Of a DNA stretch of 10,520 nt, positions 1 through 10,520 are shown piece by piece. The notes below the pieces were generated by a model, which worked only from the letters and a program-made list of their open reading frames with translations, was not told the origin of the DNA and did not search any database. Within the stretch, counting starts at the first letter, position 1. Each line of letters begins with the position of its first letter. The DNA comes from Chitinophagaceae bacterium (GTDB lineage Bacteria > Bacteroidota > Bacteroidia > Chitinophagales > Chitinophagaceae): the NCBI GenBank assembly GCA_026785745.1, contig JAJAZO010000344.1:1-10520 (forward strand). The letters run 5' to 3'. A program made the position numbers and the translations under genes.

Positions 1-1
1 A

Positions 2-1477
2 GAATGGTACGATTTTTATATTTTCGGGATGCTTTCCACCACCATTTCCACCCAGTTTTTTCCAAAAACGAATCCTACAGCTGCCTTGCTCAGTACATTT
101 GCCATTTTTGCGGCGGGTTTTATCGTCCGCCCATTAGGGGCATTAATCTTTGGCCGTTTGGGTGATTTGATTGGAAGAAAATATACTTTCCTGCTTACAC
201 TGATACTGATGGGTGGCTCTACTTTTCTTATCGGTTGTGTGCCCAACTATGAAAGTATTGGTGTTGCTGCTCCAATAATAGTTTTATTGCTAAGATTATT
301 ACAGGGGCTTGCCCTTGGAGGTGAATATGGTGGCGCCGCCACTTATGTTGCCGAATATTCCCCCGTCGGCAAAAGAGGTTATTACACCAGTTGGATACAA
401 ACAACAGCAACACTTGGTCTTTTTTTAGCATTGGGTGTTATTCTGCTGGTAAAATCAAATATGCCTGATGCTTCTTTTACAGCAGAATGGGGCGGCTGGC
501 GGTATCCATTCTGGATTTCTATTTTGTTGGTGGGAGTTTCCATTTACATACGACTGAAGATGAAAGAATCTCCGATGTTCTCTAAACTGAAAGCAGAAGG
601 AAAAACATCTGCCCACCCATTGAAAGAAAGTTTCCGTCGAAAAGCAAATTTTAAAATGGTATTGCTGGCCTTGTTTGGTGCGGTGATGGGGCAGGGAGTT
701 GTTTGGTACACCGGGCAGTTCTATGCACAGAATTTCTTAGAAACAAAATGCTTTATTGAATTTGAACAAAGCAGGACGATTATGCTATGGGCAATTGCTT
801 TGGCTACACCTTTCTTTATTCTCTGGGGTTGGCTAAGCGATAAGATTGGGAGGAAATGGATAATGATGGTGGGGATGGCTTTAGCAATATTTACTTATAG
901 GCCGATATTTAATACTTTTTTGAAGGATAGTAATCCTGAAAATTGGATACCTGAAAATAGTAAGCAAGAAGAATTTGCTTTTTATGAAAAACCATTAAAC
1001 CCTGAAATAAAGAATATTGATAGTAACACCCGTATTACTACCGCAAAACATTCGTTTCCTAAAGGAGGATCAACAATAGCAGCAATAACTTACAAGAAAA
1101 ATATAGATGAAATTTCGGCAGAACAAATTGACTCAGTAGTATTTTCTAATAAGCACCTTCCTTCAAATCTCTACTGGAAATTCATTGGACTTCTTTTCTT
1201 ATTAATTCTATATGTAACGATGGTCTATGGCCCTATTGCCGCCTTCTTAGTAGAATTGTTCCCGACAAAAATCCGTTACACTTCTATGAGCCTTCCGTAC
1301 CATATTGGTAATGGTGTATTTGGAGGATTAGTTCCTTTTATCGGCTTGCTTTTAACAACTACTTATCCTGCAGACCCATTGGTAGGGCTTTGGTATCCGA
1401 TTGGTGTAGCGGCATTGTGTTTAATAATCGGAGTATTATACCTGACAAATAAAATTGATAGAAATATAAAAGATTAG
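2..1477 (+). CDS. MHS-family MFS transporter, 5' end cut by window edge
   Basis: A secondary transporter of the major facilitator superfamily, metabolite:H+ symporter (ProP/KgtP-like) type, in the inner membrane; the substrate cannot be named. The reading frame is open from base 2 and begins EWYDFYIFG, the conserved first-helix motif of this family, so the Met at 29 is internal and the true start lies upstream of the window. Both copies of the cytoplasmic MFS motif are present: GRLGDLIGRK (about residues 42-51 counted from the Met at 29) and GWLSDKIGRK (267-276). The RLLQGLALGGEYGG segment of helix 4 is also typical. A hydrophilic stretch of about 80 residues (about 299-380) separates helices 9 and 10 and should face the periplasm; it is much longer than in enterobacterial relatives. 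The gene is followed after 73 bases by a small membrane protein. Family assignment is firm; substrate unknown. Confidence 0.93.
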   Translation, partial: EWYDFYIFGMLSTTISTQFFPKTNPTAALLSTFAIFAAGFIVRPLGALIFGRLGDLIGRKYTFLLTLILMGGSTFLIGCVPNYESIGVAAPIIVLLLRLLQGLALGGEYGGAATYVAEYSPVGKRGYYTSWIQTTATLGLFLALGVILLVKSNMPDASFTAEWGGWRYPFWISILLVGVSIYIRLKMKESPMFSKLKAEGKTSAHPLKESFRRKANFKMVLLALFGAVMGQGVVWYTGQFYAQNFLETKCFIEFEQSRTIMLWAIALATPFFILWGWLSDKIGRKWIMMVGMALAIFTYRPIFNTFLKDSNPENWIPENSKQEEFAFYEKPLNPEIKNIDSNTRITTAKHSFPKGGSTIAAITYKKNIDEISAEQIDSVVFSNKHLPSNLYWKFIGLLFLLILYVTMVYGPIAAFLVELFPTKIRYTSMSLPYHIGNGVFGGLVPFIGLLLTTTYPADPLVGLWYPIGVAALCLIIGVLYLTNKIDRNIKD

Positions 1478-1478
1478 A

Positions 1479-1497
1479 CCTCCTCCACAAGAGGAGG
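1479..1497. repeat. short GC-rich inverted repeat after the MFS gene
   Basis: A perfect 7-bp stem (CCTCCTC at 1479-1485, GAGGAGG at 1491-1497) with a 5-base loop begins one base after the MFS stop codon. It lies in a GC-rich patch (about 1479-1516) that stands out from the A/T-rich flanks. No T-run follows it on the plus strand, so it is not a textbook intrinsic terminator. It could be a transcript-stabilising hairpin or part of a dispersed intergenic repeat. Confidence 0.45.
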
Positions 1498-1550
1498 CCA
1501 CCGGAGCACAGCCCTGACTTATTCATCAACTCGTATAAAACTCAAAATCT

Positions 1551-1796
1551 ATGAATGCCTTTAAAAGATATTTCGGATTACTGCTCTTAATAATTGGCCC
1601 TCTTTTTATTTATGAATTAGTGGCGGGTGCTATTGCCAATATTGATACAGCCGGTAAGAAAGATATTAATAACCCTGTTATCTGGATTATCATTATTACC
1701 ATCTTTACACCCATTGCTATCGGGCTGGTTATATTTGGCTGGTATGCTTTCCGGGGAGAGTATGACAGGCTACCGCAAAAGTCTAAAGAACTATAA
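1551..1796 (+). CDS. small two-helix membrane protein, DUF6814-like
   Basis: An 81-residue inner-membrane protein with two predicted transmembrane helices (about residues 7-28 and 43-67), a short polar link containing GKKDINNP, and a charged tail (RGEYDRLPQKSKEL). From memory it resembles DUF6814, a Bacteroidota family of about 75-80 residues often encoded beside MFS transporters, and here it directly follows one in the same direction. It may be an accessory subunit of the transporter, but no biochemical role is known to me. The start at 1551 has an A-rich upstream stretch, and its MNAFKRYFG N-terminus looks natural. The existence of the gene is well supported by composition and context; the family name is from recall. 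Confidence 0.8.
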   Translation: MNAFKRYFGLLLLIIGPLFIYELVAGAIANIDTAGKKDINNPVIWIIIITIFTPIAIGLVIFGWYAFRGEYDRLPQKSKEL

Positions 1797-1839
1797 ATCA
1801 ACCTGTAAAAAATTTGACAATCTACAAACAATTCAGGCA

Positions 1840-1868
1840 TTGTTTTGTAATACTGACATATATCTTTG
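1840..1868 (+). promoter_or_regulatory. Bacteroidota-type sigma-A promoter for the small exported protein and export genes
   Basis: TATCTTTG at 1861-1868 is an exact match to the Bacteroidota -7 element TAnnTTTG. A TTG at 1840-1842 lies 18 bases upstream, in the accepted range for the -33 element. Transcription would begin around 1873-1876, only a few bases before the ATG at 1879, implying a very short leader or leaderless mRNA. The promoter separates the MFS/small membrane protein pair from the following genes. It was identified by motif only. Confidence 0.5.
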
Positions 1869-1878
1869 CACTTCAAAC

Positions 1879-2163
1879 ATGAAAAAAATAGCAACCATAT
1901 TTTTGTTTTTGTTCACACTGGTACAGGCAGGCCCGGCTATTTATTCATTATTTTCTGATACCACTACCGTATTTATCGTAGATGAAGAAAAAGGGGCAGA
2001 ACAAGCAGATACCTTAGAAAAGAAAGATAAGAAAGAATACCCCTCCCTTTCATGTCAAGAGGAAGAATTTTCTTATAAAATAAGTACTGCTTTTCATGTT
2101 GCTGAAAAAATTCACCCATCCCCCAGTCTCGATAAGCCGACTCCCCCGCCCAATTTTTGTTAA
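1879..2163 (+). CDS. small exported protein of unknown function
   Basis: A 94-residue protein. Residues 1-17 (MKKIATIFLFLFTLVQA) form a signal peptide with likely cleavage near VQA/GPA, so the mature product should be periplasmic or surface-exposed. The rest is polar and acidic/lysine-rich (EEKGAEQADTLEKKDKKEY, residues 36-54), followed by a proline-rich tail (KPTPPPNFC). It has two cysteines, C59 and the C-terminal residue C94. The start at 1879 is chosen because it begins the signal peptide and lies just after a promoter; upstream sequence in the same frame is not protein-like. It precedes the ABC/HlyD/TolC genes by 80 bases and may be co-transcribed. I do not recognise a family. A role as accessory or substrate of the export machinery is possible but unproven. 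Confidence 0.72.
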   Translation: MKKIATIFLFLFTLVQAGPAIYSLFSDTTTVFIVDEEKGAEQADTLEKKDKKEYPSLSCQEEEFSYKISTAFHVAEKIHPSPSLDKPTPPPNFC

Positions 2164-2243
2164 TTAAATTTCCCTGTTTTGATTTCAGGTACGCTTCAGC
2201 ATGTCTGTATTTTTCTTTAACTTATTAACAAATATTTTATTTC

Positions 2244-3896
2244 ATGCCAACACCCGCAAGCCCGGTTTCAAGGATATTAAACCTTGTAAAACTGGAGCGT
2301 AAAGAAATTACTGCTGTTTATTTCTATGCGATATTAAATGGCCTTATACAACTATCCTTGCCCATAGGTGTACAGGCCATCATCGGTTTTGTAATCGGTG
2401 CTTCCATGAGGGCTTCGCTGATTGTACTGATAATATTGATAGTAACCGGGGTATTTGCTGCCGGTATTATGCAGGTAAACCAGATGAAGATTATTGAAAA
2501 AATTCAACAGAAAATATTTGTCCGTTATTCATTTGCATTTGCAAAGCATATTCCGCGGTTAGATTTAAAGAAAATAGATACTATTTATTTGCCGGAGCTG
2601 ATCAATCGGTTTTTTGACATCCCGGTATTGCAAAAAAGTTTATCCAAAGTTTTATTAGATATACCCACTGCAAGTATCCAGATTATATTCGGATTGATGT
2701 TGCTATCGTTTTATCATCCCGCATTTATACTTTTTAGCTTTGTGCTAATCACCCTGTTGTGGCTTATACTACGCTTTACTGGTAACCGGGGTCTGCAAAC
2801 CAGCATTGATGAAAGTACTTACAAATATACAACGGCAGAATGGCTGGAAGAAGCGGCAAGGGTTATCAAATCCATTAAACTGGCAAAAAATAATGACCTG
2901 CACCTGCAAAAAACAGATGAACAGGTTACCAACTACCTGGATGCCCGTAACAGCCATTTTAGAATACTGCTGTTCCAGTACAATGTATTGGTGCTCTTTA
3001 AAACAATTATCACTGCTGCTATGCTCATTGTAGGTACATTATTATTAGTAAATCAGCAATTGAATATCGGCCAGTTTATTGCAGCAGAAATTATCATACT
3101 CCTTGTGCTGAATTCAGTGGAAAAACTGATTATGACACTGGGTAGTGTATATGATGTGCTGACAGCTGTTGAAAAATTATCCAATCTAACCGATAAGCCT
3201 GTTGAAGAGAATGGCACTGTTCATTTATCAGCTATCAGCAAGGGACTAAAAGTAGAAATGAAAAACCTGAGTTTCAGTTATAATGACGAAAACGAAATAC
3301 TGAATAATATTTCATTGCAAATAAACCCCGGAGAAAAAGTATGTATAACTGGAAAAGACAGTTCTGGCAAGTCCACTTTACTGCGTTTAATGGCATGTGC
3401 TTATACAGATTTTAAAGGTGCCTTTTTGCTGGATGATGTACCGGTGGGCAATTATGATTTAGACACTGTCCGGTCACAGTTGGGTGTGCTGATGAGTCAA
3501 CAAGACATTTTTCATGGCACTTTAAAGGAAAACATTGCATTGGGAAATGAGCAAATCTCTATGGAAACAATAATTAATATTGCCGGAAAAGTTGGACTGA
3601 ATGATTTTATTGCCAAACTCAAAATAGGGTATGATACCATTCTTGACCCAACCGGCAACCGATTACCCCGGAATGTTATTCATAAAATTTTATTAGTAAG
3701 AGCTCTGGCGGGTAAACCCCGCCTCTTATTACTGGAAGAACCCTGGATGAATTTTCAGGATATTCACCGCCGCCAAATCATTCAATTACTCGGCGAGATT
3801 GAAAATACAACACTAATCGTTGTAAGTAATGATGAGGAATTTATCAGGCAATGTGATAAAGTAATTCGCATTGAAGAGGGCAATGTTATTATGTAA
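2244..3896 (+). CDS. HlyB-like ABC transporter, peptidase-less, with degenerate ATPase motifs
   Basis: An inner-membrane ABC exporter half-molecule of 550 residues that would act as a dimer with the HlyD and TolC proteins encoded downstream. Residues 20-300 form the six-helix type-I exporter domain; there is no N-terminal C39 peptidase domain. The ATPase domain covers about 335-550: aromatic A-loop region SFSY (343-346), intact Walker A GKDSSGKST (370-378), Q-loop SQQD (418-421). The remaining motifs are altered: where LSGGQ is expected there is GNRLPRNVIHK (471-481), Walker B reads LLLLEEP with Glu replacing the magnesium-binding Asp (E498) but the catalytic Glu kept (E499), the SALD D-loop is absent, and the switch His is replaced in VVSND (N529). 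I recall similar deviations in other Bacteroidota relatives, so it is probably a subfamily trait rather than decay. The frame is intact. Substrate unknown. Confidence 0.92.
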   Translation: MPTPASPVSRILNLVKLERKEITAVYFYAILNGLIQLSLPIGVQAIIGFVIGASMRASLIVLIILIVTGVFAAGIMQVNQMKIIEKIQQKIFVRYSFAFAKHIPRLDLKKIDTIYLPELINRFFDIPVLQKSLSKVLLDIPTASIQIIFGLMLLSFYHPAFILFSFVLITLLWLILRFTGNRGLQTSIDESTYKYTTAEWLEEAARVIKSIKLAKNNDLHLQKTDEQVTNYLDARNSHFRILLFQYNVLVLFKTIITAAMLIVGTLLLVNQQLNIGQFIAAEIIILLVLNSVEKLIMTLGSVYDVLTAVEKLSNLTDKPVEENGTVHLSAISKGLKVEMKNLSFSYNDENEILNNISLQINPGEKVCITGKDSSGKSTLLRLMACAYTDFKGAFLLDDVPVGNYDLDTVRSQLGVLMSQQDIFHGTLKENIALGNEQISMETIINIAGKVGLNDFIAKLKIGYDTILDPTGNRLPRNVIHKILLVRALAGKPRLLLLEEPWMNFQDIHRRQIIQLLGEIENTTLIVVSNDEEFIRQCDKVIRIEEGNVIM

Positions 3897-3913
3897 CCAA
3901 CAAAACAGTAAAA

Positions 3914-5224
3914 ATGTACAGCATAAATTCATACATACATATTTACAAGCACAACAAAAACAGCCGGGTAAAAATTTGGTTCTTTATCTGCATGCTGGTA
4001 TTTGTGATTTTTTTATTTCTGCCCTGGACGCAAAATGTAAGAGCCACAGGCACTGTAACAACACTATTTCAGGACCAACGACCCCAGCAGGTAAATACCA
4101 TTATTGGCGGCCGGGTAATGAAATGGCATATCAAAGAAGGCGATTATGTAAAAGCAGGTGATACATTGGTGCAACTGACGGAAGTAAAAACAGATTACCT
4201 CGATCCTAATCTTTTGCAACGAACGCAGGAACAACTGGCAGGAAAACAATTATCGGTAGAATACTACAAAAGTAAAGTTGGTGTAACCGACCAACAGATT
4301 GGAGCAATTAATAGCGGCCTGCAGTTGAAACTGAACCAGCAATTAAATAAGCTAAATCAGCTACAATTAAAAGTGCAGGCTGATAGTGCAGAAGCAGTAG
4401 CGGCAAACAATGATTTTATCATTGGTACCAAACAATTTAATCGGCAAAAAGCCATGTATGATAGTGGACTGGTTTCATTAACCCAATTAGAATCCCGTAA
4501 CCAGCAATTTCAGAATGCAGTAGCAAAAAAGATAGGTGCGGAAAATAAACTGGCCAATAGTAAACAGGACTTAACCATTACCCGGATTGAAATGAGTGCC
4601 TTACAACAAGAAAACCTGGAAAAAGTATCCAAAGCACAGGGAGAACAATTTCAATCGCTTACCCAAATAGCCAGTGGGCAGGCAGATGTAGCCAAACTGG
4701 AAAACCAGTATGCCAGTTATACTATCCGTAATGGTATGTATTATGTATTGGCTTCGCAAAGCGGACAGATTGTAAAAGCACAAAAAGCCGGTATTGGAGA
4801 ATTTGTAAAGGACGGCGATATGATTGCAGAAATTGTTCCTGATAAAATTCAATATGCAGTAGAGATGTTTGTTCAGCCATTTGATCTGCCTTTACTAGCA
4901 ACGGGACAAAAAGTACGGTTCCTCTTTGATGGTTTTCCGGCTATTGTTTTCAGTGGGTGGCCCAAAGCATCATCCGGCACATTTGGTGGTGAGATAGTAG
5001 CAGTTGAAAGCAATGTTAGTGTAAATGGAAAATTCAGGGTGTTGGTAAAAGAAGATGCAACTGACAAACCATGGCCCAAAGAACTAAAAATGGGAACCGG
5101 TGCACAAGGAATCACTTTATTAAAAGATGTAGCGGTATGGTATGAACTGTGGCGGAACATCAATGGATTTCCACCAGACTATTACATGCCGGGAAAAAAT
5201 GTAAAAGATTACGGAAGTAAATAA
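3914..5224 (+). CDS. HlyD-family membrane fusion protein
   Basis: The periplasmic adaptor linking the ABC protein to the outer-membrane TolC channel. The 436-residue product has a short cytoplasmic N-terminus, one transmembrane helix (about residues 20-37), a first lipoyl half-motif (about 60-92, with GGRVMKWHIKEGDYVKAGD), a long Gln/Lys-rich coiled-coil hairpin (about 98-265), a second lipoyl half (about 277-310, SGQIVKAQKAGIGEFVKDGD) and a beta-barrel region (about 312-400). This is the usual HlyD order. It starts 17 bases after the ABC stop codon, so the two are surely co-transcribed. The C-terminal VWYELWRNINGFPPDYY segment resembles the HlyD-type C-terminus. Substrate specificity cannot be read from the sequence. 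Confidence 0.93.
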   Translation: MYSINSYIHIYKHNKNSRVKIWFFICMLVFVIFLFLPWTQNVRATGTVTTLFQDQRPQQVNTIIGGRVMKWHIKEGDYVKAGDTLVQLTEVKTDYLDPNLLQRTQEQLAGKQLSVEYYKSKVGVTDQQIGAINSGLQLKLNQQLNKLNQLQLKVQADSAEAVAANNDFIIGTKQFNRQKAMYDSGLVSLTQLESRNQQFQNAVAKKIGAENKLANSKQDLTITRIEMSALQQENLEKVSKAQGEQFQSLTQIASGQADVAKLENQYASYTIRNGMYYVLASQSGQIVKAQKAGIGEFVKDGDMIAEIVPDKIQYAVEMFVQPFDLPLLATGQKVRFLFDGFPAIVFSGWPKASSGTFGGEIVAVESNVSVNGKFRVLVKEDATDKPWPKELKMGTGAQGITLLKDVAVWYELWRNINGFPPDYYMPGKNVKDYGSK

Positions 5225-5287
5225 TTAAGCAATACCAGGATGGTTGTAATTAAACAACTAACATAAATAAAAACAAAACATCAGAAA

Positions 5288-5989
5288 ATGAAAAAAAAAA
5301 TCAGAATGATGGTACTGGCAACCGGGATGGTTGCAGGTACATTAACATGGCAAAGTTGTAATACCAACAAGGACAAAGAAACCACATCAGCAGGTACAAA
5401 AACAGATAATGCTGCAAAAAATGAAACAACCACAAATCCAAAAGTAGAACAAACTATTAAAGACCTTGGCCTGGTGTATGTAGAAGAAGGTGCACAAAAC
5501 ATTGTTACGTACGATGAAGTAAATGCAGCACAACAAGCATGGTGTGATGCTTTGGTAAAAATCGGGCAACTGCATAAAGATGGTGGCGACTATAAAGCAT
5601 TTGCCGAAAAAGTACTCAGCGATGCCTATAATTATGATTACGGAAAAGTATTCTTTAAGCCTACTCTGGCCTATGGCGAACAAACTTTCAGGCCAACCAA
5701 AAAAGGGGCATTGGCTTATTTTATTGGCGGAGATCCTGAGTATCCAAACGATAAAGGGTTTGCTCTTGCACCCTGGGTAAAAGCCAGGTATGACAACCTG
5801 GGTAAGGACAATCAGGGTATCCAAATTTATGGTTCTGTAGCCATCACTATGGGTAATGTGTGGGTAACAGACAAAAGTGGTAAAGAAGTGATGGTAGATA
5901 AAACCTTTGTTTTCAAAAAAGGGGCTGATGATAAACTGCGGCTTATTGTACATAAGTCAGCATTACCGTTTAGTCCGGATAGTAAATAA
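5288..5989 (+). CDS. NTF2/SnoaL-like lipoprotein, candidate iota-class carbonic anhydrase
   Basis: A 233-residue exported protein. The N-terminus (MKKKIRMMVLATG...) is a lipoprotein signal ending in WQSC, so Cys24 is the likely lipidated residue; the -3 Trp is atypical for a lipobox. A Thr/Lys/Asn-rich linker (25-55) leads to a compact domain (about 70-230) with AAQQAWCDALVKIG (80-93), FKPT (123-126), GALAYFIGG (140-148), GFALAPWVKAR (157-167) and LRLIVHKSALP (217-227). I recall these motifs from a family often annotated as phosphoribosyl-AMP cyclohydrolase but belonging to the NTF2-fold group that contains iota carbonic anhydrases. Thr126, Tyr144 and Ser224 could correspond to the Thr/Tyr/Ser site of the metal-free type. 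The usual HHSS segment reads HKSA here. Ten A's follow the ATG. The gene lies between hlyD- and tolC-like genes (63 and 50 bases). Gene certain; enzyme activity a hypothesis. Confidence 0.85.
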   Translation: MKKKIRMMVLATGMVAGTLTWQSCNTNKDKETTSAGTKTDNAAKNETTTNPKVEQTIKDLGLVYVEEGAQNIVTYDEVNAAQQAWCDALVKIGQLHKDGGDYKAFAEKVLSDAYNYDYGKVFFKPTLAYGEQTFRPTKKGALAYFIGGDPEYPNDKGFALAPWVKARYDNLGKDNQGIQIYGSVAITMGNVWVTDKSGKEVMVDKTFVFKKGADDKLRLIVHKSALPFSPDSK

Positions 5990-6039
5990 TTTTTTACTGA
6001 TTTAAACCTCATAACGGCATCTTTGAAGAAAATAAGAAT

Positions 6040-7446
6040 ATGAAGCAGTGTATCCTACTAACAACCCTTCTTTGTATGACCGTTATGGGGTTTTCCCAAC
6101 AACCGGAAAAAATACTTTCAGCGCAACAGGTAATGGAAATTGTGCAACGTTTTCATCCGGTAGCCAAACAAGCAGATATCTTTATTGAAAAAGCCAAAGC
6201 GGATGTAACTATAGCCAAAGGCGGATTTGACCCAATGCTGCAAAATGAATTGGCTAAAAAAACTTTTGATGGCACGGACTACTTTTATTACAACCGTCCA
6301 GAATTAAATATTCCCACCTGGTTTGGTGTAGATGTAAGAGCCGGTACTGAGTATCTATCCGGAAGTCGAACAGACCCTATGAACACAAGAGGAGAAACCA
6401 GTTACTTAGGACTGAACGTGCCACTGGCAAAAAATCTGTTGATGGATAAAAGAAGGGCCGCCTTGCAAACGGCAAAGATTTTCCGGGATGCTTCGGAAGT
6501 GGAGAAAAGAAATATATTAAATAACCTGTTGCTTGATGCCATGAAAAGTTACTGGAACTGGGCGCAGCAGTACCAGGTTTTTCAAATACTCAGTAATGCA
6601 GTAATCGTAAATGAAAAAAGGGTGCAGCTAGTAAAAACTACTTTCCAACTCGGGGATAGGCCTGCTATTGACACCACAGAAGCCTTAACGCAGTTACAAA
6701 GTTTTGAATTGATGAAAAGCCAGGCCTGGCTTGATTTTCAAAATGCCGGGTTAGACTTATCGCTGTATTTATGGACAGCACAAACCAATCCTTATTATTT
6801 ACCCGAAACAATTAGCCCGGCAGATAACCTGCAAACAATTAATTTAAACAACGTTGTACTACCGGAGCTGAACAGCCTGTTGGATGCAGCCCTTAAAAAC
6901 CATCCGGAGTTACTTATTTACAATTACAAATTAGATGTGCTGGATGTGGAAAAGAAGCTGAAGTTTCAGGAGCTATTACCTAAAATTGATTTTAGATATA
7001 ATCAACTGGGCAAAGGTTATAATGTATTGAAAACGGCCACCGCCCCCTTGTTTGAAAATAATTTTCAATATGGTATTTCTATGGGCATACCGCTTCGCCT
7101 GTCGGCAGGCCGTGGTGAATACCGAAAAGCCAAACTAACAATTACAGAAACGCAATTGCAACAATCACAAAAGCAGTTGCAGGTGGAAAATAAAGTAAAA
7201 AGTTATTTCAATGAATTGGTTACACTGAAAAGCCAGGTAAGTCTTCAGGAAAAAGCATATAGCAATTTTCTGGCCTTACAACGGGGGGAAGAGATACGGT
7301 TTCAGGCCGGGGAAAGCTCCTTGTTTCTTATTAATGCAAGAGAAAACAAAACACTGGAAGCCTTGCAAAAATTACAGGAGCTGAAAGCAAAATATTTTAA
7401 AACCCAAAACGCCCTTCAATGGGCTGCTGGTTTGTTGATAAACTAA
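6040..7446 (+). CDS. TolC-family outer-membrane efflux channel
   Basis: The outer-membrane component of a tripartite exporter, forming a trimeric barrel with a periplasmic alpha-helical tunnel. The 468-residue product has a signal peptide ending near GFSQ (residue 20) and two structurally repeated halves, as usual for the family: the first contains FQLGDRPAIDTTEA (202-215) and the second FQAGESSLFLINARE (421-435), equivalent positions at the ends of the long helices. The length is typical. With the ABC and HlyD genes upstream it completes the export path. An imperfect -7-like element, CATCTTTG (6018-6025), lies 14 bases before the start without a convincing -33 element, so read-through from upstream is the simpler explanation. 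Its 3' end (about 7278-7446) has a decayed second copy about 580 bases downstream. Confidence 0.94.
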   Translation: MKQCILLTTLLCMTVMGFSQQPEKILSAQQVMEIVQRFHPVAKQADIFIEKAKADVTIAKGGFDPMLQNELAKKTFDGTDYFYYNRPELNIPTWFGVDVRAGTEYLSGSRTDPMNTRGETSYLGLNVPLAKNLLMDKRRAALQTAKIFRDASEVEKRNILNNLLLDAMKSYWNWAQQYQVFQILSNAVIVNEKRVQLVKTTFQLGDRPAIDTTEALTQLQSFELMKSQAWLDFQNAGLDLSLYLWTAQTNPYYLPETISPADNLQTINLNNVVLPELNSLLDAALKNHPELLIYNYKLDVLDVEKKLKFQELLPKIDFRYNQLGKGYNVLKTATAPLFENNFQYGISMGIPLRLSAGRGEYRKAKLTITETQLQQSQKQLQVENKVKSYFNELVTLKSQVSLQEKAYSNFLALQRGEEIRFQAGESSLFLINARENKTLEALQKLQELKAKYFKTQNALQWAAGLLIN

Positions 7447-7473
7447 ATATTTTTAAAACTAAAAACGAAAGTT

Positions 7474-7779
7474 ATGAAATGTCCGAATTGTGAAGAAACA
7501 CTGGTAATGACAGAAAGACAAGGAGTGGAAATTGATTATTGTCCAAAATGCCGTGGTGTCTGGTTAGACAAAGGTGAGTTGGATAAAATCATTGAAAAGT
7601 CAACAACTGCCGAAACATCACAAAACCTCAAAAATCAAGGTGAAAAAAGAAGGCAGCAAGATGATGACGACGACGACGATGATGATGAAGGATTCTTCAA
7701 CCGCAAAAGACGCAATGATAATAATGACAACTCTGAAAGAGGAAAAGGTGGTTTTTTAGGCAACTTATTTGATTTTTGA
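7474..7779 (+). CDS. zinc-ribbon (zf-TFIIB type) small protein with poly-Asp tail
   Basis: A 101-residue cytoplasmic protein. Residues 1-40 form a zf-TFIIB-type zinc ribbon: CPNC (C3, C6) and CPKC (C23, C26) supply the four zinc ligands, followed by the hallmark RGVWLDKGELDKI. The rest is low-complexity: a Lys/Gln stretch, nine consecutive aspartates (codons at 7660-7686), a basic patch (NRKRRND), an Asn/Asp-rich stretch, then GGFLGNLFDF at the C-terminus. The DNA or protein target is unknown; proteins of this family are widespread and mostly uncharacterised. The hydrophobic C-terminal tip resembles a docking peptide, but that is inference. It begins 27 bases after the TolC stop codon and is probably the last gene of that transcript. 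It lies between the intact tolC 3' end and its decayed copy. Confidence 0.9.
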   Translation: MKCPNCEETLVMTERQGVEIDYCPKCRGVWLDKGELDKIIEKSTTAETSQNLKNQGEKRRQQDDDDDDDDDEGFFNRKRRNDNNDNSERGKGGFLGNLFDF

Positions 7780-7821
7780 TTAATTAATTTTTTAAACTTA
7801 GTATTTATGAAAGGAATTTGT

Positions 7822-7867
7822 CCCTGTTGAAATAGCCTGTAAAAAACTACATGCCATTTCAACAGGG
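7822..7867. repeat. perfect 12-bp inverted repeat (hairpin) in convergent intergenic region
   Basis: CCCTGTTGAAAT (7822-7833) and ATTTCAACAGGG (7856-7867) are exact reverse complements separated by 22 bases. The element lies between the convergent zinc-ribbon and TerC genes, so it could fold in transcripts from either side and help end them, but no T-run follows on either strand. The right arm overlaps the region aligning with the tolC remnant, so the palindrome may mark a rearrangement junction. Confidence 0.6.
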
Positions 7868-8024
7868 CGGAGCGATAGTATTTCGGGCCGGAAGAGTTTC
7901 GTTGTTTCTTATTAACGGGGCACAAAACAATGGAAGCCTGTTAAAAAATACAGGAGTTGAAAGAATATAATGTTTAAAACACCAAAATACCCTTCGATGG
8001 ATTGCGGGCTTAATAGTGGTTAAT
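7839..8024 (+). pseudogene. decayed fragment of a TolC C-terminus
   Basis: This stretch aligns with the 3' end of the tolC-like gene upstream (about 7278-7446). In the frame starting at 7863 it reads QGGAIVFRAGRVSLFLIN, against QRGEEIRFQAGESSLFLIN in the intact protein, and ends TLRWIAGLIVVN against ALQWAAGLLIN. The middle part matches in another frame (TMEAC, stop, KIQELKEYN against TLEALQKLQELKAKY). A net 5-base loss near 7921 and a 2-base gain near 7960 break the frame, and in-frame stops are present. Exact DNA blocks include TTGTTTCTTATTAA (7902-7915) and TGGAAGCCT. Only the last 55 or so codons survive and the stop codon is lost, so it cannot make a channel. It overlaps the TerC stop codon by five bases. 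The left boundary is uncertain (7839-7860). Confidence 0.85.
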
Positions 8025-8784
8025 CAGACATATCTTTATCAAGTTTGCTTTCCTTCTCCGTATAATGTTGATGCAATTGGACAGGAGGTGTTTTTTTTCG
8101 TTGCATCCGCATCTGGATTATATCCACCAACAAGGCAAAAGCCATAGAAAAATAAATATAGCCTTTAGGAATTTTTACACCAAACCCCTCTGCAAGTAAA
8201 GACATACCAATTAACATCAAAAAACTCAATGCCAACATTTTGAATGCCGGATGCTTATTTACAAAACCGCTGATAGGCTCTGCTGCAAACAGCATGACAA
8301 TAACAGTGATAATAACGGCAGTATACATAACCCAAATTTGCTGTACCATTCCTACTGCAGTTATAATGGAGTCAACAGAAAAAATCAAATCCATTATTAA
8401 TATCTGACCAATCACCGCTCCAAACGAAGCCCCTTTCATTTTAACTGTTACATCTCCCTCAACACCTTCCATCTTATGGTAAATTTCCTTTGCACTTTTG
8501 TATAGCAAAAACAAACCACCTGCAATTAATATCAGTTCTTTTCCGGAGAAACCAATGTTGAAAAGCGTAAACAAATCATTATCCAGTTTCATAATAATGG
8601 CAACTAAAGCCAGCAATCCCAGGCGCATCCCTCCTGCGAGTAACAATCCGAGTCTTCTTGCTTTCTTTTGCTGATGCTCAGGAAGTTTTGCTGCTAGTAT
8701 GGAAATAAAAATAATATTATCAATTCCCAATACCACTTCCAATGCTATCAGTGTAACAAGGGCAATAATAATTTCATAGCTCAT
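8020..8784 (-). CDS. TerC-family integral membrane protein
   Basis: A 254-residue polytopic inner-membrane protein of the TerC/Alx superfamily; characterised members have been linked to Mn2+ export, tellurite resistance and alkaline pH response. Hallmark acidic motifs lie within membrane helices: EVVLGIDNIIF (E16, D22, N23) and MDLIFSVDSIITAVGM (D132, D138). These conserved charges are the likely metal-coordinating residues. Seven or so hydrophobic segments cover residues 5-225; the C-terminal tail (226-254) is polar with HQH. It starts 9 bases after the DUF2490 stop codon, so the two genes form an operon. Its stop codon lies within the tolC remnant, showing that the rearrangement reached the very end of the gene. 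Which ion it moves cannot be decided here. Confidence 0.93.
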   Translation of the reverse strand: MSYEIIIALVTLIALEVVLGIDNIIFISILAAKLPEHQQKKARRLGLLLAGGMRLGLLALVAIIMKLDNDLFTLFNIGFSGKELILIAGGLFLLYKSAKEIYHKMEGVEGDVTVKMKGASFGAVIGQILIMDLIFSVDSIITAVGMVQQIWVMYTAVIITVIVMLFAAEPISGFVNKHPAFKMLALSFLMLIGMSLLAEGFGVKIPKGYIYFSMAFALLVDIIQMRMQRKKTPPVQLHQHYTEKESKLDKDMSD

Positions 8785-8793
8785 ATTATTTTT

Positions 8794-9555
8794 TTAAAGA
8801 GTAAGATGAGAGCTTAACACCACACCATTATTTCGTTGAATAATACTATTATTATTAAGTCTACGGCCCTGCTGAAGGGTTTGATTGAAATAGCCGCCTT
8901 CTAAAGATAAATTTTTATTGACCTTAAATCCTAACAATAAAAAAAGTCGATTCTGGTCAAAAATATTTATGCCAAGATTCTTTCCCGCCCCAATAAATAG
9001 TTCATCCGCAGCTACCCCATATAGTTGCTTATCCTTTTTTGTCCACAAGGAATGTTGTGCCCTGAACTGGTAACGAAACCGGTGGAGAAAAGTCCAGCTT
9101 TCTATTTCTCTGTCTGAGCCTGTGCCTGTGCCTGTGCCTGCTTTTACTTTTCCCAGCCACCGCTGTTCTATGCGAAAGCGGTGACTGAATGTCCATTTGT
9201 TTACAGGTTGCCGGAATGTTATCTGTTCGTACAGCCGATGCTCAGGAAATGTACCGGCAGAAGCTATAGGAAAGTCACCGTATGGAAATGTTTCAATCCA
9301 ACTATACCCTGCATGAGCAGTTACATTTTCGTTCAGTTTATAATTAGCCCCAATTCGTAATAAACTTTGTTGCCAGTATTTTAACCCATTCGTTCTGCGC
9401 CACTGGTATTCCAGGTGCAGGCTCCATTTCTTATCAAGTTTAAAAGTATTAAAAGTTTGCAGCCAGTTTGTATTGTTAAAATCATTCACCCGGTCGTTCT
9501 GTGTATTGCCTTGCAGGCTAATCAATATAAAAAGGATAAAAATATTTTTTTTCAC
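8794..9555 (-). CDS. DUF2490 outer-membrane-type protein, GTG start
   Basis: A 253-residue protein with a signal peptide (about residues 1-18, ending near QGNTQ) and alternating aromatic/polar strands throughout, such as WSLHLEYQWRR, WTFSHRFRIEQRW, WTFLHRFRYQFR and NLSLEGGYFNQTLQQ; it ends in a beta-strand-like SSHLTL. This is the pattern of the DUF2490 family, small outer-membrane beta-barrels of unknown function common in Bacteroidota. The start codon is GTG at 9555; no ATG upstream fits, and the signal peptide requires this start. Only 12 bases separate it from the stem of a strong terminator. Residues around 142-147 (GTGTGTG) are encoded by a hexanucleotide repeat and lie in a likely loop. 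Co-transcribed with TerC; no function assigned. Confidence 0.87.
   Translation of the reverse strand: MKKNIFILFILISLQGNTQNDRVNDFNNTNWLQTFNTFKLDKKWSLHLEYQWRRTNGLKYWQQSLLRIGANYKLNENVTAHAGYSWIETFPYGDFPIASAGTFPEHRLYEQITFRQPVNKWTFSHRFRIEQRWLGKVKAGTGTGTGSDREIESWTFLHRFRYQFRAQHSLWTKKDKQLYGVAADELFIGAGKNLGINIFDQNRLFLLLGFKVNKNLSLEGGYFNQTLQQGRRLNNNSIIQRNNGVVLSSHLTL
9118..9141 (-). repeat. hexanucleotide tandem repeat inside the DUF2490 gene
   Basis: Four tandem copies of GCCTGT (the last ends GCCTGC) on the plus strand encode alternating Gly-Thr in the DUF2490 protein. Because the unit is six bases, gain or loss of copies keeps the frame and would only change a loop length. Confidence 0.8.
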
Positions 9556-9560
9556 AATAA

Positions 9561-9593
9561 ATAAAAGAACCGCCCCGTAGAAACGGGGCGGTT
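9561..9593 (-). terminator. intrinsic terminator after the carbonic anhydrase gene
   Basis: A perfect 11-bp GC-rich stem (9568-9578 pairing with 9583-9593) with a 4-base loop is followed on the minus strand by CTTTTATTTATTG, a T-rich tail. It lies 21 bases past the carbonic anhydrase stop codon and ends the SulP/carbonic anhydrase transcript. The plus-strand tail (TATTTCT) is weaker and no plus-strand gene reads into it. The T-tail runs into the start of the next minus-strand gene. Confidence 0.88.
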
Positions 9594-9614
9594 TATTTCT
9601 AAAATAACCCTTTA

Positions 9615-10292
9615 TTAAACGAGGGTTTCATTATTTGCAACCAGCTTTTCACTTTTAATGCTAACCGTATCTTCATAAAAATCAACAACACCGCTTTCTA
9701 CATTATACATAGCGCCACAAATTCCTATCTCGCCATTCTCAATCATTTCATGCAGTATGTGGCTTCTTTCCAATACGGCATTTACTGTTCTTCTTACATT
9801 AATGGTAGCAACATTCTCTACAAATTCGCCGTTCTTTGAGTTACGTTCTACCTTAGTAACCGTTTCATCATCCACAGCCGGACGTATTTTTGAAAGCAAG
9901 GCAGTAAGATTACCCATCTCCACATGGTCACAGGCTCCTTTAACAGCTCCGCATTTGGAGTGTCCCAGTACTACAATTAATTTTGACCCGGCTACCTTGC
10001 AGGCAAACTCCATGCTACCGAGTATATCTTCATTCACAATATTGCCGGCAATCCTTACACTGAAAACATCGCCAAGCCCCTGGTCAAAAATTAATTCTAC
10101 AGATGTACGGCTGTCAATACAGCTAAGTACTACAGCAAAAGGCCATTGACCATCCCGTGTATCATTTACCTGTTGCAACAGGTTACGGTTAAATTTTAAA
10201 TTACTGACAAATCTTTTATTCCCATCTTTCAAAATATCCAATGCAATTTGTGGAGTAATGGTTGATTGTGATTCTTTATTATGTGTTCTCAT
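9615..10292 (-). CDS. beta-class carbonic anhydrase
   Basis: A cytoplasmic zinc enzyme interconverting CO2 and bicarbonate. The 225-residue protein has no signal peptide and carries the complete beta-class active site: SCIDSR with zinc ligand C58 and the Asp60/Arg62 dyad, and LGHSKCGAV with zinc ligands H111 and C114. Further family signatures are DVFSVRIAGN (75-84) and the late GEIGICGAMYNVESG (187-201). The length is typical for bacterial enzymes. It lies 20 bases downstream of the SulP-type transporter gene in the same direction, a common pairing in which imported bicarbonate and CO2 are equilibrated, and is followed by a strong terminator. The start at 10292 has an A/T-rich leader and fits the family N-terminus. 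Confidence 0.96.
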   Translation of the reverse strand: MRTHNKESQSTITPQIALDILKDGNKRFVSNLKFNRNLLQQVNDTRDGQWPFAVVLSCIDSRTSVELIFDQGLGDVFSVRIAGNIVNEDILGSMEFACKVAGSKLIVVLGHSKCGAVKGACDHVEMGNLTALLSKIRPAVDDETVTKVERNSKNGEFVENVATINVRRTVNAVLERSHILHEMIENGEIGICGAMYNVESGVVDFYEDTVSIKSEKLVANNETLV

Positions 10293-10312
10293 TTTTTATT
10301 TAATTAAAATTT

Positions 10313-10520
10313 TTAAGAAATAGATGTTACGTTTTCTGTGTTTGAAATTTTATACACTTCTTTAAACCCAATTGTTTTACAGGTTATATTTTTAAGTGGT
10401 GCCTTTATATCTCTAAACTCTTTTATCAACCCTAACACATCAAATTCAATATACTGTGTTTTAGATGCATCAATTATTACTGTTGCATTTTCAGGAATAT
10501 GGTCAAGGGTTTCTCTAATA
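10313..10520 (-). CDS. SulP-family anion transporter, C-terminal STAS domain only (truncated by window)
   Basis: The final 68 residues of a protein whose start lies beyond the right edge; the frame is open to base 10520 and stops at 10313-10315. The sequence reads IRETLDHIPENATVIIDASKTQYIEFDVLGLIKEF and so on, with GFKEVYKI near the end. The VIIDASK strand and the following helix are typical of the STAS domain closing SulP (SLC26-like) transporters in Bacteroidota. Such transporters move bicarbonate, sulfate or other anions. The carbonic anhydrase gene 20 bases downstream favours bicarbonate, but this is inference. A standalone STAS protein cannot be excluded from the visible part. Confidence 0.78.
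   Translation of the reverse strand, partial: IRETLDHIPENATVIIDASKTQYIEFDVLGLIKEFRDIKAPLKNITCKTIGFKEVYKISNTENVTSIS

Follow-up and report, generated by a model that had tools for sequence, protein, structure and literature searches.

The locus described here raises the question of why a gene for a carbonic anhydrase (CA)-like lipoprotein is situated among genes for an ABC exporter-type system, and what its product may contribute at the cell envelope. The original prediction had placed the lipoprotein in the iota-CA group and had proposed either a supply of bicarbonate or CO2 at the envelope or a role as a non-enzymatic NTF2-fold partner of the exporter.

Gene content of the window

The window, i.e., the whole stretch of 10,520 nucleotides that was analysed, comprises positions 1-10520 of its contig and belongs to a source genome of 2.8 Mb that is 72.8% complete. 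The gene order ABC, HlyD, lipoprotein gene, TolC, as originally proposed, agreed with the Pfam assignments. The following features were assigned:

2..1477, plus strand: MFS transporter, nearest to the metabolite:H+ symporter subfamily but under its cut-off; 5' end lost at the window edge
1551..1796, plus strand: DUF6814 small protein, 81 aa (Pfam)
1879..2163, plus strand: small protein, 94 aa, with a signal-like N-terminus; start picked by us inside a 178-aa open reading frame (1627-2163)
2244..3896, plus strand: ABC exporter-type protein, 550 aa, with a degenerate nucleotide-binding domain (Pfam, alignment)
3914..5224, plus strand: HlyD-type periplasmic adaptor, 436 aa (Pfam, NCBIfam)
5288..5989, plus strand: iota-CA-like (COG4337-type) putative lipoprotein, 233 aa, ATG start (open reading frame, phmmer, alignment, fold model)
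5357-5359, plus strand: codon of iota-CA Cys24, in the signal-like N-terminus
5501-5974, plus strand: iota-CA domain, residues ~72-229 of the frame 5288..5989
5663..5665, plus strand: codon of T126, aligned with catalytic Thr106 of all2909 (alignment; role from the excerpt of PMC8132391)
5717..5719, plus strand: codon of Y144, aligned with catalytic Tyr124 of all2909 (same basis)
5951..5953, plus strand: codon of H222, aligned with His197 of all2909 (same basis)
5957..5959, plus strand: codon of S224, aligned with Ser199 of all2909 (same basis)
6040..7446, plus strand: TolC-type outer-membrane efflux protein (OEP), 468 aa (Pfam)
7474..7779, plus strand: zinc-ribbon (TFIIB-type) protein, 101 aa (Pfam)
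8020..8784, minus strand: TerC-family membrane protein, 254 aa (Pfam)
8794..9555, minus strand: DUF2490 protein, 253 aa, predicted to be outer-membrane-barrel-like (Pfam, structure prediction)
9568..9593, minus strand: terminator-like stem between the beta-CA and DUF2490 genes, 11 pairs, 8 of them G-C; a consensus match only, with 14 such stems found against 8.1 expected in shuffles
9615..10292, minus strand: beta-CA, 225 aa (Pro_CA; NCBIfam NF011765 above cut-off)
10313..10519, minus strand: SulP-family transporter, last 68 aa, cut by the contig end (tblastn, frame, stop)

The plus-strand genes are closely spaced, with gaps of 17 bp between ABC and HlyD, 63 bp between HlyD and iota-CA, 50 bp between iota-CA and TolC and 27 bp between TolC and the zinc-ribbon gene, and the minus-strand block of SulP, beta-CA, DUF2490 and TerC genes is convergent with them. 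The 94-aa protein at 1879-2163 gave no Pfam match; its cluster occurs in 18 of 39 mapped loci including the window, mostly immediately 5' of the ABC gene.

Sequence relationship to iota-CAs

A phmmer search of the PDB returned the two crystallised COG4337 enzymes, 7c5v (E 1.8e-42) and 7c5x (E 6.5e-67), and two further matches that were both at chance level. These E-values, together with 3,061 homologues at E<=1e-3, show that the similarity to iota-CAs is not due to chance. The 120 homologues listed carry PF27546, and the query itself gave no Pfam family match.

Identity to the Anabaena enzyme amounted to 81 of 153 alignment columns. In an 88-row alignment, which included the window, some near-duplicates and both L001 and L133, residues T126, Y144, H222 and S224 aligned with Thr, Tyr, His and Ser of the Anabaena core; their equivalence to Thr106, Tyr124, His197 and Ser199 was counted by hand as chain numbering plus 27. 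The quartet was intact in 84 of the 88 rows, the window among them, and three rows were gapped there. The original prediction had named T126, Y144 and S224 as well as the stretches FKPT, ALAYFIGG and HKSALP, all of which were recovered in the frame 5288-5989; H222, like the beta-CA, the SulP C-terminus, DUF2490 and TerC, is an addition to it. At the C-terminal HHSS motif the window reads H222-K-S-A, so that the catalytic His and Ser are kept and the other two positions differ. K223 is present in 83 of the 88 rows, the window clade having HKS[A/S] where the Anabaena protein has HHSS, and Cys86 occurs in 87 of 88 rows at a place occupied by Gly in the Anabaena protein.

Against the NCBIfam equivalog NF047901 (metal-independent CA) the protein scored 170.7 bits, which is below the cut-off of 350, and it is thus not assigned to this equivalog. 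For comparison, the Anabaena enzyme reached 336.8 with its core of 155 residues and three relatives 175-188, suggesting that the model is tuned to the cyanobacterial clade. The assignment to the COG4337-type iota-CA family is sound, short of activity.

In the excerpt of PMC8132391, alanine at each of the four residues inactivated the Anabaena enzyme, while in a B. natans domain changes of the His and the Ser lowered activity only 4- and 8-fold; for bacterial iota-CAs the excerpt only suggests a role, namely hydration of CO2 in the periplasm to meet pH and metabolic requirements. The window protein resembles all2909 of Anabaena sp. PCC 7120 (PDB 7c5v, 7c5w; PMC8132391, excerpt) in its single domain, its matching predicted fold and its Thr/Tyr/His/Ser set, but differs by a lipoprotein-like N-terminus with Cys24, by HKSA, by Cys86 and by its score under the NF047901 cut-off. 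Bn86287 of Bigelowiella natans (PDB 7c5x, 7c5y) belongs to the same family and was matched in three stretches, but has three repeated domains and is an algal plastid protein (PMC8132391, excerpt). Two deviating copies were observed among the relatives: in locus L041 the catalytic Tyr column holds a Cys, the sole substitution within the quartet in the 88 rows besides the three gapped ones, and in L065 the iota-CA frame (~10001-10648) is broken by a stop.

Predicted fold and N-terminus

An AlphaFold model computed from 37 sequences had a mean pLDDT of 77. Its best fold match was 7c5v_B (target TM 0.86, query TM 0.61, rmsd 1.9, 51% identity), and the five best matches were all iota-CA chains, which in the predicted model corresponds to a cone-shaped alpha+beta barrel. 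With regard to the superposition originally envisaged, the model agreed with 7c5v overall, with low confidence around the active site: mean pLDDT was 57 for residues 121-130 with T126 and 62 for residues 221-230 with H222 and S224. Because model confidence is low at these residues, it is the sequence alignment that carries the active-site claim.

The reading as a non-enzymatic NTF2-fold lipoprotein, a partner or binder, could draw on these poorly modelled loops and on other NTF2-like proteins that matched the model weakly (E 1.8e-5 and weaker). However, the only strong sequence matches, like the best fold matches, are iota-CAs, and the four critical residues are kept, so that this alternative, also part of the original prediction, appears very improbable. 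Sequence, predicted fold and active-site columns rather agree on iota-CA membership, as had been proposed.

The N-terminus, inspected by eye, is signal-like and reads ...LTWQSC24 with a putative lipobox cysteine, which would fit the predicted lipidation. The Cys24 column holds Cys in 77 of 88 rows, is gapped in 8 and has other residues in 3. Secretion of the protein as a type I substrate was considered and is disfavoured because it has its own signal-like N-terminus. In two other loci, L134 (1066-1548, minus strand) and L135 (from 9795, plus strand), the iota-CA lacks a signal-like N-terminus and directly adjoins SulP, and may perhaps be a cytoplasmic version.

Position of iota-CA genes in relatives

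The best 80 of 140 confirmed iota-CA loci were compared, 77 of which had a called iota-CA open reading frame; the look-alike loci L007/L009/L010/L011 and L017/L019 stayed among the 80. L001, a contig of the congener G025, and L133 agree in length and layout and were treated as one contig. Among these best 80 of 140 loci, the order hlyD-iota-CA-tolC was found only in L001, in addition to the window. A conserved operon of this kind, which the original prediction had offered as a check, is therefore rejected, and the position between hlyD and tolC is a local curiosity. Likewise, iota-CA as a general trait of the group is rejected in view of its patchy distribution, as it was found in 7 of 58 relatives and, across the class, in 14 of 395 genomes (own genome counted in both; some matches weak or partial).

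The ABC trio itself was present in 10 of the 80 iota-CA loci, including loci from Flavobacterium and Chryseobacterium; in F. buctense (L012), a single locus combines iota-CA-DUF2490, TerC and ABC-HlyD-TolC. It encloses the iota-CA gene only in L001; in the 9 further loci the gene lies outside the trio, in differing orders. L001 holds iota-CA and a leucine-rich repeat (LRR) gene between HlyD and TolC, suggesting an iota-CA-LRR cassette; at this place, an LRR gene is lacking in the window. The close relatives G009 and G015 have ABC-HlyD-TolC without iota-CA. The iota-CA gene would have joined the operon, probably with the LRR gene, in an ancestor common to the window's genome and one congener. 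The next same-strand gene after iota-CA encodes a DUF2490 protein in 24 of 77 loci and an LRR protein (Pfam) in 10 of 77.

SulP, SbtA or DabB genes were found in 10 of the 80 loci (L014, L015, L017, L019, L020, L028, L030, L057, L076, L077), and in the other 70, many of which are on short contigs, the inorganic-carbon (Ci) genes probed for were not found. Counting SulP, DabA and SbtA only, there were 9 of 80 loci (L017 and L019 look alike) against ~0.8 genes expected from the density in the 58 related genomes, i.e., an estimated ~118 genes in 176 Mb; this yardstick covers the window's order only while the 80 loci span further taxa, and the Ci families were chosen after the loci had been inspected. 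Compared directly with control regions (10 of 80 versus 0 of 20), the difference was not significant (p 0.095).

L015 reads SulP-beta-CA-DabA-DabB-TetR-iota-CA-DUF2490-DUF2490 and further on, past two short open reading frames and on the other strand, TerC-zinc ribbon-TolC-HlyD-ABC-DUF6814-MFS. L014 has SulP, LysR, isocitrate dehydrogenase, DUF6671, SbtA, iota-CA and LRR in this order, and L129, which shares this order, additionally has DabB-DabA and DUF2490. SbtA and iota-CA are adjacent in L014, L028 and L129, SulP and iota-CA in L134 and L135. Isocitrate dehydrogenase and DUF6671 genes also occur together in iota-CA loci with a LysR regulator (L014, L020, L047, L129).

That the order is confined to the window and G025 would fit an iota-CA gene that is a mere passenger, placed between hlyD and tolC by chance, with an exporter whose cargo is unconnected with carbon. 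However, several Ci genes lie around iota-CA as well as around the exporter, both in the window and in relatives, and the trio shares a locus with iota-CA in differing orders. We thus consider a passenger distinctly unlikely.

The minus-strand genes and a putative Ci locus

The SulP C-terminus, beta-CA, DUF2490 and TerC genes on the minus strand led us to read the window as a putative Ci locus. It contains a Ci transporter family member, seen as 68 aa only (10313-10519; 70% identity to the L015 SulP by tblastn), and a whole beta-CA. SulP proteins may carry sulfate. In the source genome (72.8% complete), two beta-CAs were present, and searches for DabA, SbtA and a full SulP were negative. The proposed link with CO2 or bicarbonate is supported by the SulP, SbtA, DabAB or beta-CA genes of the window and of some relatives.

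The DUF2490 protein is predicted to consist of an N-terminal helix and 11 long strands. A fold search gave loose barrel matches only, the best being NanC (E 2.6e-4, TM 0.42/0.49, rmsd 8.1), and for this reason no substrate is suggested. It shares the Pfam match and the predicted barrel with the putative porin family TC 1.B.81, whose functions are given as not established in the excerpt of PMC4827864, and recurs here beside iota-CA.

From the established sequence membership, the predicted fold, the aligned residues and the gene neighbourhood we infer, with a probability of about 0.68, that the protein is a Sec-exported, envelope lipid-anchored COG4337-type iota-CA interconverting CO2 and bicarbonate for a Ci uptake locus. 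It would be exported by Sec, probably remain lipid-anchored in the envelope of its host, whose near relatives are Bacteroidota, and act outside the cytoplasmic membrane. SulP would be the probable bicarbonate importer, the beta-CA is probably cytoplasmic, and the DUF2490 barrel is a candidate outer-membrane pore. Together with SulP, the iota-CA could convert CO2, leaking CO2 included, to bicarbonate that is then taken up; where DabAB genes are the neighbours, it could provide CO2. Imported bicarbonate may feed anaplerotic carboxylation, since the source genome contains a PEP carboxylase frame, open over 638 aa and matching positions 106-678 of 919, and the RuBisCO large subunit gave no match in this 72.8% complete assembly. 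Light-stimulated anaplerotic carbon incorporation has been proposed from similar genes for one proteorhodopsin-bearing Bacteroidetes strain (PMC4148732, excerpt).

The DabA/DabB, SbtA and SulP transporters with beta-CA recur around iota-CA loci, but differ here in being linked to iota-CA, DUF2490 and the ABC-HlyD-TolC trio. Among the literature matches listed, judged by titles and the beginnings of abstracts, this combination was undescribed. The linkage to SulP, SbtA and DabAB in several loci makes a carbon-uptake role of iota-CA testable in culturable Bacteroidota.

Degenerate ATPase motifs of the ABC protein

The ABC protein resembles those of type I secretion (5l22, HlyB 7sgr) as an exporter-type protein encoded with HlyD and TolC genes, both identified by Pfam, but lacks the signature and the H-loop His. 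Of Walker A, signature and H-loop, which characterise a canonical type I secretion ATPase, only Walker A is kept, and the type I NCBIfam models stayed far under cut-off (best 200.2 versus 693.1 bits).

The signature and the H-loop His were missing in 35 of 35 aligned orthologue rows (L001 and L133, the same contig, included) and kept in 20 of 20 paralogues. The H-loop position holds N, S, A, T, K or Q in the 35 rows, never His, with Asn in the window; none of the rows has [LV]SxG[QE] at the aligned signature place, and Walker A keeps GK[ST]. Aligned columns were used for this comparison instead of a strict pattern test, which recognised only 8 of the 20 controls; by pattern search, SGG[QEM] occurs somewhere in 3 of the 35 orthologous proteins. 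The absence of these two elements speaks against an ordinary hydrolysis of ATP, and, as far as motifs can tell, the ATPase motor looks disabled.

Linkage of the exporter genes to Ci genes

The ABC protein was searched in 58 relatives, 423 bits or more being taken as a clear orthologue. Such an orthologue was found in 31 genomes, the G030 copy being split by a stop. Within ~10 kb of 18 of the 31 genes, SulP, SbtA or DabA was encoded (coordinates, manual count); this applied to 16 of the 21 orthologues from the window's own genus and to 2 of the 10 from outside it (G049, G050). The other 8 outside the genus had none of the three within ~10 kb, nor did 5 of 21 within it have one nearby, three of these 5 lying on contigs of <12 kb. 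Regions were fetched for 25 of the orthologues, and the remaining six genomes (G030, G037, G042, G050, G054, G055) were assessed by coordinates; SulP is ~3 kb from ABC in G030 and ~8.4 kb in G050.

Among the fetched regions, 14 of 25 contained SulP, SbtA or DabA/B as compared to 0 of 20 paralogous-ABC regions from the same genomes (Fisher p 3.9e-5), with identity limits that were set after the maps had been inspected and with less control sequence in total (0.32 Mb versus 0.42 Mb). SulP of L123 and L124, at <35% identity, was omitted from this count; both are SulP by Pfam, and with them the count is 16 of 25. The 0 of 20 is weak alone, as only 0.21 genes were expected. Anywhere in the genome, SulP, SbtA or DabA occurred in 31 of 31 genomes with the ABC orthologue and in 21 of 27 without (p 0.007), genomes of one genus not being independent in these counts.

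The Ci genes near ABC are arranged in several ways. DabB-DabA-beta-CA-SulP is convergent in L111, L112 and L113, DabB-DabA-SulP-beta-CA follows TerC convergently in L110, and SulP with beta-CA is convergent in L114 and L126. On the ABC strand, SulP occurs in L116, L118, L119, L120 and L127, and SulP-beta-CA in L144 from another family; SbtA lies near ABC in L117, L120 and L127. A Na+/H+ antiporter, a CitMHS-type transporter and a second beta-CA also recur in the fetched regions. The motif-degenerate ABC-HlyD-TolC family is associated with Ci genes, so far mainly in one genus and in iota-CA loci of other Bacteroidota.

These data bear on a further explanation, in which iota-CA cooperates with a tripartite, ATPase-impaired ABC-HlyD-TolC system. 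This system would itself take part in acquiring Ci, for instance as a regulator or as a gated conduit through the envelope, and the CA would be located on its periplasmic or outer-membrane side. The exporter is Ci-linked also without iota-CA, as seen near the orthologues and in whole genomes, the trio shares loci with iota-CA, the motif loss extends to all orthologue rows, and genes of one TetR subfamily are, depending on the locus, neighbours of ABC, SulP, DabB or SbtA. However, the linkage is mainly that of one genus with its non-independent genomes, the regional comparison carries the limits given above, DabA is present without an ABC orthologue in G001, G008 and G027, and neighbourhood is not interaction. 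Moreover, Ci genes are widespread, being present in 52 of 58 genomes, and the cases of absence may reflect genomes that are small or incomplete. We regard a partnership with the exporter as somewhat unlikely. With the same reserve, and rather against the odds, the locus could represent a new Bacteroidota Ci module, in which an envelope-spanning pseudo-ATPase ABC-HlyD-TolC system stands beside SulP/SbtA/DAB and, here, a metal-free CA has entered the operon. If true, the ABC-HlyD-TolC family with lost ATPase motifs would be a new kind of carbon-acquisition partner in heterotrophs.

The TetR subfamily recurs beside ABC, SulP, DabB, SbtA or TerC genes in various loci (L012, L015, L017, L019, L027, L035, L037, L041, L043, L045, L054, L076, L120, L128, L147) and is a candidate Ci regulator.
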